Below the pieces are notes generated by a model. That model was not told where the DNA came from. It ran no database searches and worked only from the letters and a program-made list of their open reading frames with translations. Position numbers and translations under genes: made by a program. A DNA stretch of 64,000 nucleotides, from IMG/VR virus record IMGVR_UViG_3300021474_000004, positions 1 through 64,000 of that record; one strand, written 5' to 3'. This document shows positions 3,197-58,783 of this stretch, piece by piece. Each line of letters opens with the position of its first letter. Position 1 is the first letter of the stretch. The stretch comes from a virus.

Positions 3197-3216
3197 CGTT
3201 TTAATTTTAAGTTAGT

Positions 3217-3311
3217 GCGGGGAGCTGGAGTCGAACCAGCAAACTATTCACCAACAAACAAAGGAAGTGGAACCTTTCCCATTGGCCGCTTTACCATTTG
3301 CGTACCCTCGC
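3217..3311 (-). tRNA. tRNA-like element with oversized anticodon loop
   Basis: Acceptor strands GCGAGGG and TCCCCGC pair with one A-C mismatch and one G-U. A D-arm (CGC, loop AAATGGTAAA, GCG) and a perfect T-arm (GCTGG TTCGACT CCAGC) are present. The anticodon stem CCAAT/GTTGG sits at the right distance, but the loop between its strands is 25 bases instead of 7, and the variable region is 10 bases. If the last seven loop bases, TTTGTTT, are the true loop, 18 bases would be extra. The amino-acid identity cannot be assigned; it may be a class II tRNA, an intron-bearing tRNA or a decayed gene. Confidence 0.4.
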
Positions 3312-4429: not shown

Positions 4430-5176
4430 TTAATCAATTTTAGACAGCCACACCTTCTTGTTGTTTTTCCAGTTGAAGATAGTTTCAAGCATGGTAAGGT
4501 ATTGTTTTACAGAACCGGCATGAACCAATTCTGTTGACATATATTGTAGTTTCTGCATGAATTTATCAAAGTCAAATTCTGGATGTTCTAAGGCATGAAC
4601 CATAGCAAACACAAAGCTGCGCCTTTTGTATCCATCATAGTATTGTTTTATACGATGAATCTTATCGCCAATATCATTGGCTTTCTTTAGTTGGGTTATC
4701 TTAAATGTCCCATTTTCAAATGCCTCTGGAGCTCCCCCCTTTCCTCCTGCCTGCGCCCCGGTGAGAAGGGATAACGAAATCTGGTGGGCAAATCCATACT
4801 TTTCCTGGAACTCTTTATATTTAACGTAGTCTTCCTTACCTTCATTGATATATCTGTGAAGGTAATCTTCGGCAACCCATTTATCATGGTTGGTATTAGC
4901 CCTTGTAACCTGTTCTATACCATAGCCTTTTACAATTATAAAGAATACAGGCTTCCCAAGTTGGGCAATGGCAGACAGCCTGTTCTGCCCGTCAATAATT
5001 TCAAACTTATCATTAACAATGATAGGTATTTGCAACTGCTCTTCCTCTATGGACTTCATGAGCTTTTGAACATGCCGATTGTCAAGTTCCCTGTTGCCTT
5101 TCAGTTTCTTAAAGACTCCATAGTCTTTAGTTTCGAGGACTTTGTTGACCTCCTTGAAGTGTTTAGCTTTTAACAT
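4430..5176 (-). CDS. ParB-like N-terminal domain protein
   Basis: Residues 25-80 form a ParB/sulfiredoxin-fold domain: GNRELDNRHVQKLMKSI, then IPIIVNDKFEIIDGQNRLSA. The IDGQNR box (residues 61-66) corresponds to the GQHR/GxRR nucleotide-binding box of ParB, which in chromosomal ParB binds and hydrolyses CTP. The remaining 165 residues are helical and could hold a helix-turn-helix, but none is clear. Phage ParB-like proteins act as nucleases, regulators or partition proteins. A perfect parS site lies at 18743-18758, but nothing in the sequence shows that this protein binds it. Full length is 248 residues. Confidence 0.8.
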   Translation of the reverse strand: MLKAKHFKEVNKVLETKDYGVFKKLKGNRELDNRHVQKLMKSIEEEQLQIPIIVNDKFEIIDGQNRLSAIAQLGKPVFFIIVKGYGIEQVTRANTNHDKWVAEDYLHRYINEGKEDYVKYKEFQEKYGFAHQISLSLLTGAQAGGKGGAPEAFENGTFKITQLKKANDIGDKIHRIKQYYDGYKRRSFVFAMVHALEHPEFDFDKFMQKLQYMSTELVHAGSVKQYLTMLETIFNWKNNKKVWLSKID

Positions 5177-7654: not shown

Positions 7655-8005
7655 TTAGTTCTTTATTTTTTCAAAGCTGAATTTAACCTTTATCATCTTC
7701 ACCGGCTTGAGACCCGTAGGCCATCGCAGGCACTTAATCACTTCGCTTGTGACCTGGTACTGTGTCCTGTCAGCGAGTTCAATCTCATCCATCTTGGCAA
7801 ACCATGCAGCAAATATATTCTCTGCCTGCTCCACTATCTTCTTACGTGGTGCCTTGCCGGATATTTGTTCCAGCTCCATTCCGGGCAGCAACCTGCTCAC
7901 TTCAAACTTCATAGTAGGTTCAAACCCGGCAAATTCAAGGTCTCCCATTTTGTCATACCGCAGGGTTGCTATCCCTATCTCTAATCCTTTCACATTGTCA
8001 TTCAT
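7655..8005 (-). CDS. Hypothetical protein, 116 residues
   Basis: A soluble protein with a Trp-containing helix (AENIFAAWFAKMDEIELA) and a basic C-terminus. It lies directly downstream of the isocyanide synthase homologue, 12 bases after it, and would be on the same transcript, but nothing in it suggests a role in that chemistry. Confidence 0.7.
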   Translation of the reverse strand: MNDNVKGLEIGIATLRYDKMGDLEFAGFEPTMKFEVSRLLPGMELEQISGKAPRKKIVEQAENIFAAWFAKMDEIELADRTQYQVTSEVIKCLRWPTGLKPVKMIKVKFSFEKIKN

Positions 8006-8017
8006 AGTAGTTCATTT

Positions 8018-8920
8018 TTAAGATTCAAAATTATAAGGTTGTCCATCTTTGTAAACCAGGTGGTACCCGGCAGCCACGGCGTCCTTACGATGCAGTGTTT
8101 CATAAACCCCGTCAGGGTTCACATACACTACACTGTGCCACGGGCTGCGTGTGGCCTTTGGACTACGTATCAATTGGAAGGAATATTTTTTCCCGTTATT
8201 AATACTGTTGTGCATAGATAGCCTTACGCTATCCTTAAACTCATGGGCTATAAGGGCAGAGTATGCTTCATTGCGTAACATCATTTCACGGGTCAGCAAC
8301 TTTGCCGCCTTGTGTAATTGGTTACGGGATGGAAATTCTTTGACCGCCAGCTCTTCTTCCATGAATATAGACATTCCCCTGTACAGGTAATTAACGTCCG
8401 GCTCCATCAGGATGCGGCGCTCTAACTCTACAGGTGTGATGCCGAATTGCTCCACTACCTTAGCCCTCATGTTGGCAAGGTGTCCTTGTCCTCCGTAGAA
8501 GTCTCTAAGGTCATACCAGCGAATAGGGGCTACTTTGGCAAGGTCTATTGACCTCTGCTCATAGTCTTCTACTGTGGTGTCTGATATGCCCAGCAGGTCT
8601 GAGAATATAAAGCCATCACTTACGATGGAGATATTCACGCCCGGAGGGTATATCTTTTTGATTGCATCGTTGAACTGCCCGAAGTTTTTCAGTGACAGCT
8701 CTTCGCCCAGGTCAGGCAGTGTTCCTATTACCTTGTTCCTGGTATTAGCCGATTTCATCGGGTATCCCAGCATGACAAACGGAATAGGTTCCCCTGTTGT
8801 GACCTTTGAGTTTATCTTGTCGGCAAGTACCTGCTTGCCTACGGTCTCAAATTGGTCAATGGGCGTGGGTGGCATCCTAAAGTCCCGGAACGCCTCCACA
8901 ATTGATTCTGTTGTGTTCAT
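8018..8920 (-). CDS. Isocyanide synthase homologue (PvcA/IsnA/DIT1 family)
   Basis: This 300-residue, full-length protein carries the family signature in order: IPFVMLGYPMKSANTRNK (46-63), GTLPDLGEE (66-74), IYPPGVNISIVSDG (90-103), FSDLLGISD (106-114), and near the C-terminus RNEAYSALI, RLSMHNSINNGKKYSF, SPWHSVVYV and AAGYHLVYKDGQPYNF. Known members convert the amine of tyrosine, tryptophan or another amino acid to an isonitrile, taking the carbon from ribulose 5-phosphate; DIT1 in yeast belongs to the same family. I know of no such gene in a phage. It lies 28 bases after a cupin gene, as a two-gene unit inside an early phage operon with the same spacing and codon style as its neighbours. 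Substrate cannot be read from sequence. Confidence 0.85.
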   Translation of the reverse strand: MNTTESIVEAFRDFRMPPTPIDQFETVGKQVLADKINSKVTTGEPIPFVMLGYPMKSANTRNKVIGTLPDLGEELSLKNFGQFNDAIKKIYPPGVNISIVSDGFIFSDLLGISDTTVEDYEQRSIDLAKVAPIRWYDLRDFYGGQGHLANMRAKVVEQFGITPVELERRILMEPDVNYLYRGMSIFMEEELAVKEFPSRNQLHKAAKLLTREMMLRNEAYSALIAHEFKDSVRLSMHNSINNGKKYSFQLIRSPKATRSPWHSVVYVNPDGVYETLHRKDAVAAGYHLVYKDGQPYNFES

Positions 8921-8948
8921 TTAGTATTACAGTTTAGTTAGTAGTTTT

Positions 8949-9896
8949 TTATTCAGGTAAAATTATCCTGTCCACCTTACGTTCTATGTTATGGAACTTA
9001 AGGAACGTGCGGGCAGCAGGCTCATTGAGTTTAAGCAGAACCAAAGGGTCTTTGCGGTACTCCGGGTCAAGCAGTAGCTGGTTGGTTCCGGCAGGGATTG
9101 TTATGGTCTGAGGGCGCAATCCGTGTGGCTTGGTGACAGGTTCCCCTTCAATGATAATGTAGTGCATGCCCAGTTCGGGTACGTTATTGCTTTTAACCAG
9201 AACCACATCTCCTATCTGCAACCGCGCGGCATGTTCTTCACTGATTCGCACCACATCTTTTTTAGTCAATCGCACCTTGTCATCAAACAATTCAAGATTA
9301 AAAGGAGAGCTCATTAGCTTTGCCGTATCCACATCAGATACAAAGTGCAGTGTGGTACTTGGCAGCAGCGTGACAGCAGAATGTATTAACATCTTGCCGT
9401 CTGCGGGAGTGTGATAAAAGTTAGTATAGACTCCTTCTGTGACAATATCCGTCCTTACATACCTTACGGTATTTTTGAAAGGGTCAGTGCGGTGAAATAC
9501 GCTGGAAAGAATCTTTCCTGAAATGAGCGCTTCCAACTGATAGGCTTCATCATGGGCATGTATCTGTGATACCAGTCCAGATTTCCACCGTACCATTGTG
9601 TAACGGGCACTCGTCATGTCATCAATGGCCAGCGTGGTACGGTCTAAATTGAACTTCATGTCATCAGACGCCTTCGCCCAATTTTGTTTCTTTAAGGTCT
9701 GCGCCAGTTCGCTGAACATATCAAGGGTTACCGCTCTTTTTCGTTGGGCGTCCTGTCCATCTATTACAGGGGTTTCATTCAGGTAATGTTCATATCCTGG
9801 TCTGTACAGTTTTAGCTGTGCCTCATTGCCCGGAACGCCAGCCGCTATTGTGAGGAGCGGGTTAGTGCTGGCGTGATAATATTTTGTTTCATCCAT
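8949..9896 (-). CDS. Cupin-domain protein paired with the isocyanide synthase
   Basis: The 315-residue protein has a cupin-like core: RWKSGLVSQIHAHDEAYQ (residues 103-120) with His113 and His115 as metal-ligand candidates, ALISGKILSSVFH next, and a later TTLHFVSDVD with His184. This recalls cysteine dioxygenase-type cupins (non-heme iron), though the spacing is longer. A C-terminal half (about 200-315) is a different, beta-rich domain with GDVVLVKSNNVPELGMHYI. In bacterial isonitrile clusters the synthase is paired with an Fe(II)/2-oxoglutarate oxygenase (PvcB); a cupin would be a different but also iron-type partner. The pairing with the synthase is seen, the joint function is inference. Confidence 0.6.
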   Translation of the reverse strand: MDETKYYHASTNPLLTIAAGVPGNEAQLKLYRPGYEHYLNETPVIDGQDAQRKRAVTLDMFSELAQTLKKQNWAKASDDMKFNLDRTTLAIDDMTSARYTMVRWKSGLVSQIHAHDEAYQLEALISGKILSSVFHRTDPFKNTVRYVRTDIVTEGVYTNFYHTPADGKMLIHSAVTLLPSTTLHFVSDVDTAKLMSSPFNLELFDDKVRLTKKDVVRISEEHAARLQIGDVVLVKSNNVPELGMHYIIIEGEPVTKPHGLRPQTITIPAGTNQLLLDPEYRKDPLVLLKLNEPAARTFLKFHNIERKVDRIILPE

Positions 9897-9901
9897 AGTA
9901 G

Positions 9902-10012
9902 TTATTTATGTTTTGTCTTGCGTTTGAGTTCCCTTTTGTTTTTCACCATGCCTACAAATACCAAGATTACCAGTGAAACCGGTGTGGCAAGGGCAACAAA
10001 AATGTTCTCCAT
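9902..10012 (-). CDS. 36-residue single-span membrane protein
   Basis: ATG at 10012 to TAA at 9902. The peptide MENIFVALATPVSLVILVFVG continues into a Lys/Arg-rich tail (KNKRELKRKTKHK). This is a typical small phage membrane protein with positive-inside orientation. It lies between the cupin gene and the next upstream gene. Confidence 0.55.
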   Translation of the reverse strand: MENIFVALATPVSLVILVFVGMVKNKRELKRKTKHK

Positions 10013-10733: not shown

Positions 10734-11000
10734 TTAAATGCCTGCTATGTAAACATCCCCGTCCCATGAAATATTCCATCCTTTGTTCCACCACCATTTC
10801 GTTATGACATAACTACCATTATAAATAAACCAGAGCCTTGTCTCTTCGTGCATTCGGACGCCCTTGATATGGGTCTTATTTTGTTTGATTGCATCAAGTA
10901 TAAGCGCCTCAACTCTTGCTATCTCATCTGGATAAGAATTAATGACGGCCTTCTTTACAACTTTAGCAGCCTCGTCTGCGGTTATGAATTTTTCTTTCAT
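10734..11000 (-). CDS. Hypothetical protein, 88 residues
   Basis: N-terminal helix (ADEAAKVVKKAVINSYPDEI), then a Trp-rich beta region (ITKWWWNKGWNISWDGDVY). The five tryptophans in 20 residues are unusual for this operon. No known family. Confidence 0.65.
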   Translation of the reverse strand: MKEKFITADEAAKVVKKAVINSYPDEIARVEALILDAIKQNKTHIKGVRMHEETRLWFIYNGSYVITKWWWNKGWNISWDGDVYIAGI

Positions 11001-11013
11001 GGCATTGTATGTT

Positions 11014-11379
11014 TTATCTTACTTCAATTATTACCTTCTTTGGCATCACATAAAAGTTCTGGTAGTCCTTTTTGTATTCCTCTTCCTGGTCGGCAAGGAA
11101 GACCTGTAGTGCATCATAGATGCGGTCAGATGTGGTATAATCATCCTTCCATACATGGGTGATTTCAAACTTATCGGTAAGGAACTCTGCAAGCCGGTAA
11201 AGGGCTACAGTGCCACCCTCTTCATATTCAGTGTACCCCATGTGGCTACCTGTGATAGCGCCACCCATAAGGTACAGGGTAACTTCATAGTGTACCTCCT
11301 GCCAGCTTGTGAACCCGTTAGGGAAGAATTTGCGGTCAGCCTTAGCTACGCTCTTGATGTAATGTCTGCGGGTGTCCAT
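11014..11379 (-). CDS. Hypothetical protein, 121 residues
   Basis: An acidic soluble protein with the segment EVTLYLMGGAITGSHMGYTEYEEGG and helical C-terminal part rich in Glu, Tyr and Lys. No motif recognised. Spacing to neighbours is short on both sides. Confidence 0.7.
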   Translation of the reverse strand: MDTRRHYIKSVAKADRKFFPNGFTSWQEVHYEVTLYLMGGAITGSHMGYTEYEEGGTVALYRLAEFLTDKFEITHVWKDDYTTSDRIYDALQVFLADQEEEYKKDYQNFYVMPKKVIIEVR

Positions 11380-11383
11380 AGGT

Positions 11384-11689
11384 TTATTTTCTTTTAAAGA
11401 ACATTCCTGTAGTTTGAAGTATATTTCTTAATGTCTCGGCAGTATTTTTATTATTGCAGTCTGCAATACATACAAGCCCTTGTCCGGGAATATGGGCAAA
11501 TACACTATAAAAAGTAGCCTGCTTTTCTTCTACCTGTTCCTCCCATCTCATAACACCTCCATTTTTACCTTTTATACTTACAGGCTTTCTTAAAACGTCC
11601 ATAGGGAAAACTATAAAATCTTCCAGCTTAACACCATGCGGAATCTCTTCGGGATGGAATGTTATCTTGGAATCAAATTTCTTTTTCAT
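11384..11689 (-). CDS. Hypothetical protein, 101 residues
   Basis: The central part GQGLVCIADCNNKNTAETLR looks like a small mixed alpha-beta domain of the kind that begins with a short strand and DCNN loop; it occurs in phage proteins of unknown role. It lies 13 bases after its upstream neighbour. Confidence 0.65.
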   Translation of the reverse strand: MKKKFDSKITFHPEEIPHGVKLEDFIVFPMDVLRKPVSIKGKNGGVMRWEEQVEEKQATFYSVFAHIPGQGLVCIADCNNKNTAETLRNILQTTGMFFKRK

Positions 11690-11702: not shown

Positions 11703-11912
11703 TTATGAATTTATAGGCGAAACTGTTACCCTTACAAAAACCTCATAGGATATATTTTGCTCCCCCTCAGTAATTATACTTTTATCTAATCCTATTCCAA
11801 TAAGGTCATTGGTTAGTTGTTCTTTTGACGCCTTGCCAATTAGTTCTTTTTGATAAGGGGACAGTTCATAAAAAATGTCACTGCCGTCTAATTTATATTC
11901 AAGTGTGAACAT
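11703..11912 (-). CDS. Hypothetical protein, 69 residues
   Basis: A short soluble protein, MFTLEYKLDGSDIFYELSP at the start, ending in a beta strand (SYEVFVRVTVSPINS). Not recognised. Confidence 0.65.
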   Translation of the reverse strand: MFTLEYKLDGSDIFYELSPYQKELIGKASKEQLTNDLIGIGLDKSIITEGEQNISYEVFVRVTVSPINS

Positions 11913-11925
11913 GGTATTATATTAT

Positions 11926-12105
11926 TTAAAGTAAATCATAAATGTCGCTGGGAGGTACAGAGAGCAGGTCTCCTATACGCTCTGCGGCAGCTCCCGGCTC
12001 TACCTCATGGTAGTCCAGCAGTTGATAGATGGTCTCCCGGTCTTGGGGTGACAGTGGGGCTATAGTTTCTGCTATAGCCTTTACTATCTGGTCGTTTGGT
12101 TTCAT
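11926..12105 (-). CDS. Acidic helical protein, 59 residues
   Basis: ATG at 12105 to TAA at 11926 gives a helical protein with two similar-looking helices (LSPQDRETIYQLLDYHE, then AAAERIGDLLSVPPSDIY), suggestive of a compact helix-turn-helix, though not clear enough to call one. It overlaps the next gene upstream by ATGA (12102-12105), which supports both. Confidence 0.55.
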   Translation of the reverse strand: MKPNDQIVKAIAETIAPLSPQDRETIYQLLDYHEVEPGAAAERIGDLLSVPPSDIYDLL

Positions 12106-12176
12106 CTCTTTGGTCTTTTGCGTCTTAGTAACCGTAGTATAAATATTACCACGGCGACAATCAGTATTATAGGCAT
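12102..12176 (-). CDS. 24-residue membrane peptide
   Basis: ATG at 12176 to TGA at 12102. MPIILIVAVVIFILRLL is followed by a basic tail RRKRPKR. It is coupled on both sides, by TAATG to the upstream gene (stop at 12176-12178) and by ATGA to the downstream gene. Such double coupling makes a chance frame unlikely. Confidence 0.5.
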   Translation of the reverse strand: MPIILIVAVVIFILRLLRRKRPKR

Positions 12177-12457
12177 TATTCTTCTTCCAAAAATCGTATC
12201 AGGTCTCTCTTGGTTTTAAACAGGTCGGTAACACTACCTATTTCATAGGTCACAGGGTCAATTGGATTAGCTGCCCATTGCAGCACTTTGGGTCTGTCAA
12301 ACATATCAGAGAACCCGTAAGTGGAACGGATGAGGTAAGGCTTGCCTTTGATGTCCTGCACCTCATAGCTTTCGTCCTGAGAGAATATTTGGTTGCCCAC
12401 AGAGAACCATTTTTTATTATTGGACTTGACTTCGGACAGTGTGAGTAGTGTTATCAT
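12176..12457 (-). CDS. Hypothetical protein, 93 residues
   Basis: A beta-rich protein with the run KKWFSVGNQIFSQDESYEV and a C-terminal helix TKRDLIRFLEEE. It overlaps the paralogous gene upstream by ATGA at 12454-12457. Not recognised. Confidence 0.7.
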   Translation of the reverse strand: MITLLTLSEVKSNNKKWFSVGNQIFSQDESYEVQDIKGKPYLIRSTYGFSDMFDRPKVLQWAANPIDPVTYEIGSVTDLFKTKRDLIRFLEEE

Positions 12458-12774
12458 ATCTTATGTTTAAGTTTTATGACACGGATGATAGTATCGTCGT
12501 AGTTGTGCCTTCTGGCTATAATCTTATCTTTATCAAAGTGAATTAGAGTATATCCTTTGTGACGGTATATACCACCGTCCATTTCAATTAAATCTACTCT
12601 TTCAGAAACGTTAGTAAGGTCAAATTCCTCCTTTGCAGCTCTGGCTAATGGACAATCTTTCCAATCTCCGAAATCGGCATCCTTAAAATGCTTCGCCCTT
12701 ACAATGAGAGGCAACGCCCCGATGCTCCATGCCTGCATCCATGTGATGCGCAGGAGCCATAAAAAGTTTCTCAT
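12454..12774 (-). CDS. AKHF-family protein, copy 2 of 3
   Basis: 106 residues. It shares with the proteins at 12771-13106 and 17121-17375 an opening IVRAKHFKDADFGDW, then DCPLARAAKEEF and a C-terminal TIIRVIKLK. The three are clear paralogues, two of them in tandem with ATGA coupling. The shared core of about 75 residues has Cys and Asp in a C-[PA]-[LI]-x-[RK]-A block. No function is known to me. This copy has an N-terminal hydrophobic extension with two Trp. Confidence 0.75.
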   Translation of the reverse strand: MRNFLWLLRITWMQAWSIGALPLIVRAKHFKDADFGDWKDCPLARAAKEEFDLTNVSERVDLIEMDGGIYRHKGYTLIHFDKDKIIARRHNYDDTIIRVIKLKHKI

Positions 12775-13106
12775 ACCTTAGTTAATTTAATGGTTCGTAT
12801 AATATTATCTCCGTAACTAAGCTCGTCTGCGGTAACAGAATCCATTTTAAACAAATGGCTACTATAGTCAGGATGTTTATATGTTACATATAGTCCTTTG
12901 TGATAATCTACCACCATTTCTGTGGTGCTCTCATATACAAGAGTGCCAAAAAATTCTCTTCCTGCTCTTGCTAACGGGCAGTCCGTTGTAGAGCTAAATC
13001 TTGCCTCCTGAAAATGCCTTGCCCTCACAATAAGGGTAACTTCCGGTAAGGTACGTTTGCCGGTTCCGTTGAACCAGTTCCGTATGGAATCAAATAATTT
13101 ATTCAT
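12771..13106 (-). CDS. AKHF-family protein, copy 1 of 3
   Basis: 111 residues with the family blocks IVRARHFQEARF, DCPLARAGREFFG and NIIRTIKLT. The N-terminal extension (MNKLFDSIRNWFNGTG) differs from copies 2 and 3. Overlaps copy 2 by ATGA. The conserved core spans about residues 25-111. Confidence 0.75.
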   Translation of the reverse strand: MNKLFDSIRNWFNGTGKRTLPEVTLIVRARHFQEARFSSTTDCPLARAGREFFGTLVYESTTEMVVDYHKGLYVTYKHPDYSSHLFKMDSVTADELSYGDNIIRTIKLTKV

Positions 13107-16921: not shown

Positions 16922-17121
16922 ATACCCATGAATTTAGCGCCTTGCCTGCTCATTTGCTTTGCCTCTCCAATGGTTTGCTTTGTTAAAGCCCTCCATGAAT
17001 GAGGTTGCAGGGGTAGTATTGTGTACATAGCGTACATTTTGGCCTGTTGATTGATACCACGTCTTGTGATAGCCCTTAATGTCATAAGGGTGCGACAGGT
17101 AATAAAGAATTGTGTTTCCAT
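16918..17121 (-). CDS. Hypothetical basic protein, 67 residues
   Basis: Arg/Gln/Met-rich helical protein (RAITRRGINQQAKMYAMY). Overlaps its downstream neighbour by ATGA and its upstream neighbour by one base. Not recognised. Confidence 0.6.
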   Translation of the reverse strand: METQFFITCRTLMTLRAITRRGINQQAKMYAMYTILPLQPHSWRALTKQTIGEAKQMSRQGAKFMGI

Positions 17122-17375
17122 TAGGTTAGTTTTAGTGTTCTTATGACTTTATTGGAGTAGTGCAGTTTTTTGGCTTTTGCTTTATCTTTGTTAAATACAT
17201 CATTATCGTATCTCATGTTAAGACTATGATATACGTCTGCTATTCGTACAATATCAACCCCCGCTCTTGTGTACTTGCCTGTTAGTTCTCTTGCCGCTTT
17301 GTCAATTGCGCACCCATGTTCGGGGTCATAAAAGTCTGTACCTTTAAAATGCTTTGCTTTCAGTTGTAGTTTCAT
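17121..17375 (-). CDS. AKHF-family protein, copy 3 of 3
   Basis: 84 residues, the minimal form of the family: LKAKHFKGTDFYDPEHGC at the start, IDKAARELTG next, and NKVIRTLKLT at the end, matching the copies at 12454-12774 and 12771-13106. Without the N-terminal extensions of the others, it defines the shared core. Unknown function. Confidence 0.75.
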   Translation of the reverse strand: MKLQLKAKHFKGTDFYDPEHGCAIDKAARELTGKYTRAGVDIVRIADVYHSLNMRYDNDVFNKDKAKAKKLHYSNKVIRTLKLT

Positions 17376-56551: not shown

Positions 56552-58783
56552 ATGATATTCCCAACAGTCTCCCAAACCATGCACCCTTCCAGAACCTTAC
56601 CGGAATCCGAGAAAGGGGAAGAGTATCACGTACAGTGGGGTAGGTACATACTATCACAAACCAATAACCCCATGTCGTTGTATAATATATACAAGTATAT
56701 TATCAACTGGAATTTCTATAAAGGCAATCAATGGATAATGAATGAAGACCTTGAGCCGTTCCTTAAGGACGATAGCGGGGATGTGCGCAACCGTATTCGT
56801 TGGTGTTACAATATTATACGTCCTTTTGTGCGTTCCCTTACCGGCAATTCCATTCTTAATTCCTATACAGTACGAGCTTATAACACTTCTGCTTATGTTG
56901 TTAAGCAGCGAGAAGAAGAGAAGGCCAAGCGGCTCCAGGCACATAAAATGATGGAGGGCATGCCTGCTTTAAAAAAATCATGGAGCAGCAAGATGAACCT
57001 GGGAAAGACTCCGCAGGAATCGCTGGATAATTTCAGTAATGATAATATTGACATAGGAGAAATGCAGATGAACGCCCTTTTCCGCAGGGTGGAACGTATG
57101 TCAAACTTCACCATGATGGACGAAGAGATAGTAAAGAACCTGGCGCTGGGCGGAATAGCCACTGTAAAAGAAGAGGTGATAAACGGAGAGTGGTGCGAAC
57201 GCGTGATAGACCCTACTTATACTGTTATAGATACTTCTGCAACCTTGCCCGACCTGTCAGATGCTTCCTTTGGAGGAGACCTTGACCTGGATGATGTGAC
57301 CCAGACCTTTGAGAAGTGGCCGGGACTCACAGATAGCGAAAGAGAAAAAATAGAACACTATGCAATGGCTGCCCAATGGCTCCAGAGCAGGTTTGATTTC
57401 TGGACAAGGTTATTTGGTTCTATGTATGGAAGGGTGCCTATGTATAACTTATACTGGCACGACACAGAACCGCTTAAGTATGGATATATTAAAGATGAGA
57501 ACGGTCTTACCATGTCTATCATCGACCATCCCAACAGCAAGTACACACAGAAGGATATAGTTCGTAAATCAAAACTACCTGCGGAGAAGAGAATAAAAGA
57601 AATGCAGGAGAGCGGGGTTCACATTAAGCATAAAGATATTATACGCTATATCTCTTTCATACCGGCAGAACTGGTTGGAGAAAATATAGTGGGCGAATAT
57701 GGTGTGTATCCTTATGATGAGGTGTATGATGAAGCCCCATTTGTAAATAAGCTACCTTATAAATATGCTACATACGATTACCGTTACGGAGAACTACTTA
57801 CTCCTACCGATACAATAGTTGACCCGCAACGTATGATGAACAGGTATCTTTCTATGATGGAGGGAGCCCTTAATAGTATGCGTGGTGCCAGTTATATTTA
57901 CGATAAGGGTATTATGGCGGACGAGGATGATGGGGAGTCGGAGATGAAGCGCAAGATGAATAAATCAGAGCCTATCGGGGTAGACGCTTCGCGTTACGGA
58001 GGCAATGTGCAGAATGCTATTGTGCCTTATAGTAATACCGATATGCTTAACGCCGCCACCGGGTACACTACCATCCTCAATAATATAAAACTGATGACCG
58101 AAAATACTACCGGGGTCAACCAGTATATGCAGGGGTTGGGAGCCGGTAAGAAATTAGCCGTGGGAGTACAGCAAAGCTCCATCGAACAGGGCACCCTAAT
58201 GCAGCAGTCCTTCTATGCCCGTGTAGCTAATTTGTACCTGGACATCTATAAGAACATAGCTAACAGGGGACGTAAGTTCTACGCAAAAGATTCAAAGATT
58301 ATCTATGAGATGCTTCACGGTTCTTTGCAGGAGTTTAAATTTTTAAAGGATAACAGGTACCAGAATTTCCATGTAGAGCTTCGCAGGGTACCGGATTCCT
58401 TTACGGACATCGACCAGGTGAACCAGATGTTGTTCCAGTTAAAGCAACTTGACCTTATAGGAGATGAACAATTTGCTACCCTGTTTAGTCGCGCAGAACT
58501 TGACCAGGTTTCTTCTGCTATATTGGAATATACGCGTAGTAAACAGAGGTTATCAGACCACATGCAGCAGGAGCAGCAACAGCAAAAACAGGAAGCGCAG
58601 GGTCAGCAACAGCAGGAGCGCCAGGATACATTTAACATGGCCAACAGCGATAAGCAGTTTAAGCTCATGGAGGAACATCTTAAGGGAGCCAATAAAATTG
58701 ATGCCATAAAAGCTAAGGGAGATACCGACCTGGCATACCAGATGCTGATTGCAAAAAGTAAAGAAAATCAAAACCAGGAATAA
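56552..58783 (+). CDS. Portal protein
   Basis: 743 residues. The central helical plan, with NMLGKTPQESLDNFSNDN-like charged helices (residues 155-175), IPAELVGENIVGEYGVYPYD, then repeated helices near residues 430-600, and the Gln-rich C-terminal tail (QQEQQQQKQEAQGQQQ), fits large podovirus portal proteins. It is the largest gene of this part and has the size used by N4- and crAss-like phages (about 700-800). The portal forms the ring where DNA enters and tail proteins join. Assignment is by fold-like pattern and size. Confidence 0.6.
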   Translation: MIFPTVSQTMHPSRTLPESEKGEEYHVQWGRYILSQTNNPMSLYNIYKYIINWNFYKGNQWIMNEDLEPFLKDDSGDVRNRIRWCYNIIRPFVRSLTGNSILNSYTVRAYNTSAYVVKQREEEKAKRLQAHKMMEGMPALKKSWSSKMNLGKTPQESLDNFSNDNIDIGEMQMNALFRRVERMSNFTMMDEEIVKNLALGGIATVKEEVINGEWCERVIDPTYTVIDTSATLPDLSDASFGGDLDLDDVTQTFEKWPGLTDSEREKIEHYAMAAQWLQSRFDFWTRLFGSMYGRVPMYNLYWHDTEPLKYGYIKDENGLTMSIIDHPNSKYTQKDIVRKSKLPAEKRIKEMQESGVHIKHKDIIRYISFIPAELVGENIVGEYGVYPYDEVYDEAPFVNKLPYKYATYDYRYGELLTPTDTIVDPQRMMNRYLSMMEGALNSMRGASYIYDKGIMADEDDGESEMKRKMNKSEPIGVDASRYGGNVQNAIVPYSNTDMLNAATGYTTILNNIKLMTENTTGVNQYMQGLGAGKKLAVGVQQSSIEQGTLMQQSFYARVANLYLDIYKNIANRGRKFYAKDSKIIYEMLHGSLQEFKFLKDNRYQNFHVELRRVPDSFTDIDQVNQMLFQLKQLDLIGDEQFATLFSRAELDQVSSAILEYTRSKQRLSDHMQQEQQQQKQEAQGQQQQERQDTFNMANSDKQFKLMEEHLKGANKIDAIKAKGDTDLAYQMLIAKSKENQNQE

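Follow-up and report, generated by a model that had tools for sequence, protein, structure and literature searches.

The known producers of isocyanides are bacteria, fungi and a few other eukaryotes. Isocyanides bind metals and are often antibacterial, and in the cellular gene clusters that make them the product is oxidized or decarboxylated by a TauD-type dioxygenase or a P450. Isocyanide synthases (ICSs, also called isonitrile synthases) can change substrate within the family: CrmA is specific for valine, and the resulting valine isocyanide is inhibitory to both S. aureus and E. coli; isocyanides have been found to bind copper (PMC9381783). The three-gene rhabduscin cluster, isnAB-GT, gives E. 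coli phenoloxidase inhibition (PMC6386379). Phage-host chemistry has so far been known mainly through proteins and base modification. A published family-wide survey of ICSs does not mention viruses, and the open literature that we searched (subscription journals lay mostly outside that scope) held no earlier report of a viral ICS.

We analysed a 64,000-base stretch (the window) of the 72,112-base virus record IMGVR_UViG_3300021474_000004 (phage G000). Its early operon, at approximately 0.3-17.9 kb, consists of tightly packed small minus-strand genes, among which an open reading frame on the minus strand at 8018-8920 encodes a 300-aa ICS homologue; the plus strand across the same interval is full of stops. 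The original prediction had recognized a full-length protein of the PvcA/IsnA/DIT1 family here, embedded among small phage genes, and both parts were borne out. The PF05141 (DIT1_PvcA) search that it had proposed returned E=4e-65 and 220.5 bits against a cut-off of 26.4, covering profile positions 1-272 of 273, and the conserved motif blocks that it had listed are present. Against solved structures, the single sequence matched PvcA (3e59, E=4.7e-28) as well as an L-Tyr/L-Trp isonitrile synthase (9dh4 and 9dhm, E from 5e-28 to 9e-28). A profile built from this protein and two viral orthologues matched PvcA-family structures at E from about 1e-33 to 1e-36, implying that the viral protein probably adopts the PvcA/IsnA fold. 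An AlphaFold model based on a three-row alignment was of low confidence (mean pLDDT 41). The window protein missed the equivalog cut-off of the NCBIfam model TyIsonSynPvcA (NF045653), with 112.9 against 600 bits.

The record encodes a phage portal protein (56552-58783; phrog_156, E=2.7e-17) and a Holliday-junction resolvase. Searches of IMG/VR and INPHARED with its putative large terminase and portal yielded no close relatives, and its 418-aa candidate capsid protein had no provirus match in 395 Bacteroidota genomes, in a search run without a positive control. Pfam recognized only DUF5675, DUF7303, HTH_3 and HNH domains among 47 window proteins encoded by early and late small genes; no hydratase, transporter, TauD/2OG dioxygenase or P450 partner was recognized among the window genes scanned with Pfam. 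Several features of this genome are recorded here in their own right. A minus-strand gene at 4430-5176 encodes a ParB/DUF262-like protein (phrog_12305, E=5e-34; GmrSD_N, 3.5e-6, below cut-off). Three paralogous small proteins, two of them in tandem, are encoded on the minus strand at 12454-12774, 12771-13106 and 17121-17375 and have the common motif (R/K)A(K/R)HF...C(P/A). A tRNA-like gene lies at 3215-3289 (minus), with an abnormal anticodon (two bases, 'gt') as called by ARAGORN; an ACTACT-ATG upstream motif is too rare for interpretation; and the end of the 72-kb record (11850-12113 in locus L013) carries a tandem repeat coding (GNGDGYG)n that is probably an assembly break point.

Scans of IMG/VR with the ICS protein and its alignment identified exactly two further carriers, G001 (IMGVR_UViG_3300023106_000002; 95.6 kb) and G002 (IMGVR_UViG_3300046454_000154; 41.4 kb), and scans with a bacterial-type motif, the G002 ICS and the ICS-linked sequences described below (window cupin, C-terminal domain and small protein) added none; such scans work through short exact motifs and may therefore miss distant viral carriers. 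INPHARED phages contained no ICS. The G001 and G002 proteins are 54% and 56% identical to the window ICS, respectively, and also pass the PF05141 cut-off at full length. Orthologues at this level of identity in two other phages, together with the E-value of the PF05141 match, exclude chance similarity.

The original prediction had paired the ICS with a neighbouring cupin. The adjacency stands, with 28 bases (8921-8948) separating the ICS from an upstream 315-aa cupin gene on the minus strand at 8949-9896, but the unit proved to comprise three genes rather than two. The third, on the minus strand at 7655-8005, encodes a 116-aa protein of a family of about 112 aa, with orthologues adjacent or nearly adjacent to the ICS in G001 (E=4e-13) and G002 (E=2e-11). 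It had no meaningful match in Pfam, PHROG, NCBIfam or PADLOC and is absent from INPHARED phages, and none of the three cassette proteins matched a PADLOC anti-phage defence family. All three phages keep the order cupin, ICS and 112-116-aa protein. G002 has kept just the C-terminal domain of the cupin, encoded by a 109-aa ORF of its own immediately upstream of the ICS, and the rest of its 41-kb record revealed no cupin barrel. The G001 cassette has a 175-aa gene between the cupin and the ICS and a weakly methyltransferase-like gene between the ICS and the small protein; these two insertions map to 9453-9980 (the 175-aa anonymous gene) and 10906-11649 (the methyltransferase-like gene) in the coordinates of locus L001. 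An all-against-all protein comparison of the three genomes showed nothing in common beyond the cassette except one weak match of virion proteins, linking G000 with G001, and a few short, marginal matches. Neither the cupin, nor its C-terminal domain, nor the small protein occurred in about 80 bacterial ICS neighbourhoods, and a search of ten whole genomes with a bacterial ICS, run without a positive control, did not recover the cupin. The persistence of three neighbouring genes as a group in phages with little else in common is strong evidence that the cassette behaves as a functional unit that moves horizontally.

The cupin combines a cysteine-dioxygenase (CDO)-like barrel at approximately residues 80-200 with a conserved separate C-terminal domain at about 210-315 (8949-9263, minus strand), the sole part kept in G002. 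This C-terminal domain is 39-46% identical in the alignment of the three phages, and across all loci compared its hmmsearch profile matched only in these carriers. The G001 orthologue is 32-35% identical and just reaches the PF05995 (CDO_I) cut-off (23.0 of 23 bits, E=6.2e-5); the window cupin alone falls below it and has no significant family match. A two-row profile of both proteins placed CDO chains as the top 20 of 22 PDB matches (E 0.006-0.06), and in a profile comparison with two bacterial CDOs only the His-x-His strand aligned. No match to a PCO/ADO-type thiol dioxygenase was obtained, and the predicted structure was of low confidence (mean pLDDT 45). The His-x-His site noted at the outset corresponds to H113 and H115, which, like H172 and H184, are invariant between the G000 and G001 cupins. 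H113, H115 and H172 are likely iron ligands, with H172 assigned from our reading of a gapped stretch in which the printed alignment places another residue; H184 stands where CDO has His155 and is a candidate second-sphere residue. At the positions aligned with Arg60 and Tyr157 of CDO (rat numbering; Arg60 binds the cysteine carboxylate), the cupins have Leu/Ile and Val/Leu, respectively, in a weak alignment. Since these two residues are not conserved, the cupin is unlikely to oxidize free cysteine. As G002 retains only the C-terminal domain, the barrel is dispensable and cannot be essential to the core chemistry; where present, it could by position stand in for the TauD-type or P450 partner of cellular ICSs.

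We compared the three viral ICSs with 94 bacterial rows from a canonical-motif collection. The highest viral-bacterial identity was 36% among the ICSs sampled, and since the set comprised the best 80 of 503 relatives of a Hymenobacter enzyme plus plasmid hits, a closer cellular relative may exist. In contrast to the loss of conserved residues that the original prediction named as a reason to abandon the assignment, nearly all polar invariants are kept: K56, S57, N59, K63, D70, E73, D102, D108, Y120, R216, R233, S235, H237, K245, W261 and H262. Thirteen of the 16 columns fixed in at least 98% of the bacterial proteins are identical in all three phages (the exceptions being F53, G247 and P260). 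At the same time, the viral proteins have in common the replacements S217N, W220Y, I236M, Q239S, G247S, T259S, L275T and Y211R, and all three have lost the otherwise fixed W257. We read this pattern as preserved core chemistry combined with an altered amine pocket, with the pocket itself assigned by inference from the alignment. That otherwise fixed sites have changed in concert speaks against free Tyr or Trp, the classical substrates. The viral pocket seems unlike the Tyr/Trp type, and the probable substrate is therefore a different amino acid; we lean, if only slightly, towards a substrate other than tyrosine or tryptophan.

On this basis we propose the following scheme. Like PvcA, IsnA and CrmA, the ICS would take an amino acid (through its alpha-amine) or a similar small amine and condense it with ribulose 5-phosphate into an isocyano compound; it probably does form an isonitrile. 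In two of the three phages the CDO-like iron cupin would then oxidize or decarboxylate this product, and that the cupin acts on it at all is a plausible step that we place somewhat below an even chance. The two components present in every carrier, the C-terminal domain and the 112-aa protein, would serve to bind, transport or channel the product or to shield the cell that makes it. Finally, by ligating copper, iron or haem centres the isocyanide would inhibit metalloenzymes of the host, or else rival cells and phages, although we regard a metalloenzyme-directed or antibacterial role as doubtful. The proposal as a whole, in which phages exchange the cassette horizontally and use it to make a small isocyanide while infecting, is the likeliest of the readings considered and about evenly poised between right and wrong. 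Its fullest form, offered tentatively, is that phages of Bacteroidota carry a mobile biosynthetic cassette and arm themselves with an isocyanide of their own, as a weapon during infection or against other phages. The cassette would then comprise an ICS of a novel subfamily, a cupin akin to thiol dioxygenases where an oxygenase of the usual kind would stand, and two previously undescribed accessory proteins.

The main rival posits an altered reaction or substrate. The ICS might act on an amine not belonging to any free amino acid (a polyamine, an aminated nucleobase, or a peptide or protein amine, for instance on the 112-aa partner) or yield an N-formyl product, as has been proposed for yeast Dit1, and the outcome would then be modification of DNA, RNA or protein instead of a secreted metabolite. 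About 21-23 of 57 bacterially fixed positions are replaced in the viral ICSs, on a long stem, the partners that are always kept are small proteins without an enzyme signature, and yeast turns tyrosine into N-formyl tyrosine, an isocyanide not having been established there (PMC5974471). However, Pfam recognized no nucleotide-modification gene among the 47 window proteins, and a CDO-like cupin better fits a small-molecule substrate; we consider such an altered reaction unlikely.

The length of that stem could also be taken to mean that the viral ICS is a catalytically dead relic, or a fold exapted without isonitrile chemistry. In the ICS tree the three viral proteins form one clade (100/99) outside the main cellular body, on a stem of 1.8 changes per site, the long branches warning against reading its exact position, and several near-fixed residues have been lost. 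Yet the residue is kept in 162 of 299 codons between the G000 and G001 ICSs, 99 of them with a different codon, and differences by codon position run at 0.42, 0.28 and 0.65. Purifying selection acts on all three cassette genes. Retention of nearly all polar invariants in three diverged lineages under such selection, with stable linkage to the same partners, makes a relic improbable, and we continue to favour an active isocyanide-forming enzyme. The same tree contains, at loci L064 and L097, second and very divergent ICS paralogues near the canonical one, which lie on a long joint branch.

G001 and G002 point to flavobacteria as their hosts. G001 has a crAss-like terminase, portal, capsid and polymerase; its portal and capsid are 66% and 79% identical to those of the Flavobacterium psychrophilum phage FpV4, with which most of its genome is collinear. 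G002 is a tailed phage of another type; its unrelated terminase and portal come closest to other Flavobacterium phages. ICSs are rare in these likely hosts: 3 of 395 Bacteroidota genomes had one, including the seed genome and one marginal match of 20 bits. In the order that contains an Aquimarina genome the count was 2 of 396 (the seed and the same marginal match), and in that of a Taibaiella MAG it was 1 of 398 (the seed alone). Because of this rarity, and because the Hymenobacter and Taibaiella ICSs belong to a different clade, the cassette is not a recent copy of a host gene. The distribution also bears on the idea that the product scavenges copper or iron for the infected cell, making the cassette a host-fitness trait, a classical auxiliary metabolic gene set akin to those for isonitrile chalkophores. 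Copper binding by isocyanides (PMC9381783) and the iron transporters that adjoin some cellular ICS clusters, as at the Streptomyces melanogenes locus, are in keeping with this idea. But the cassette has no transporter or receptor gene, the scarcity of ICSs among Bacteroidota means that no host function was copied, and slow metal acquisition would be of little gain to a lytic-type phage, so a metallophore role is also improbable. Bacterial contamination or misassembly is very improbable and was rejected: all three carriers are environmental assemblies, but phage genes flank the cassette in every record, no bacterial ICS relative above 36% identity was found, and in G001 the cassette (78.6-82.3 kb) sits in the variable early arm of a genome syntenic with FpV4, with homologues of FpV4 early genes on either side; FpV4 itself lacks the cassette.

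That three otherwise near-unrelated phages share an ICS cassette suggests that an isocyanide is made during infection. What is new is a phage carrier for a known enzyme family, a new ICS subfamily, a new oxygenase-like partner and two proteins without a known fold. If the ICS is active, phages can deploy a metal-binding small-molecule warhead. From the concerted ICS replacements and the new cupin partner one would further expect an isocyanide and a tailoring reaction that are both new.

Compared with known systems, the viral ICS resembles the PvcA/IsnA-type L-Tyr/L-Trp isonitrile synthases in homology over the whole domain, in size and in its polar invariants, but it forms a separate long-stem clade marked by S217N, W220Y, Q239S, G247S and the loss of W257. 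The Bacteroidota enzymes of Hymenobacter and Taibaiella likewise carry PF05141 and come from the phylum of the likely hosts; they are, however, only about 29-32% identical to the viral proteins and group with other bacterial ICSs in the tree. They also bear a fused TetR-like N-terminal domain, and a TauD-UbiA protein lies beside the Hymenobacter ICS. The fusion was tested against Pfam for the Hymenobacter protein (L006, 7284-8918), a similar extension is seen in L102 and L103, and such a protein may be a self-regulating biosynthetic enzyme. The phage cupin is like cysteine dioxygenase (PF05995) in its His-x-His site and likely third His, and CDOs are its best-matching solved structures, but it has an extra N-terminal region and a 105-aa C-terminal domain and is without equivalents of R60 and Tyr157. 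Like the bacterial and fungal clusters (pvcAB, isnAB, DIT1/DIT2, xan and crm), the phage cassette sets an ICS beside a putative non-haem-iron or haem oxygenase. In contrast to them, its carrier is a phage, its oxygenase-like partner is a CDO-like cupin and not a TauD protein or P450, and the constant companions of its ICS are a short anonymous gene and a C-terminal domain.
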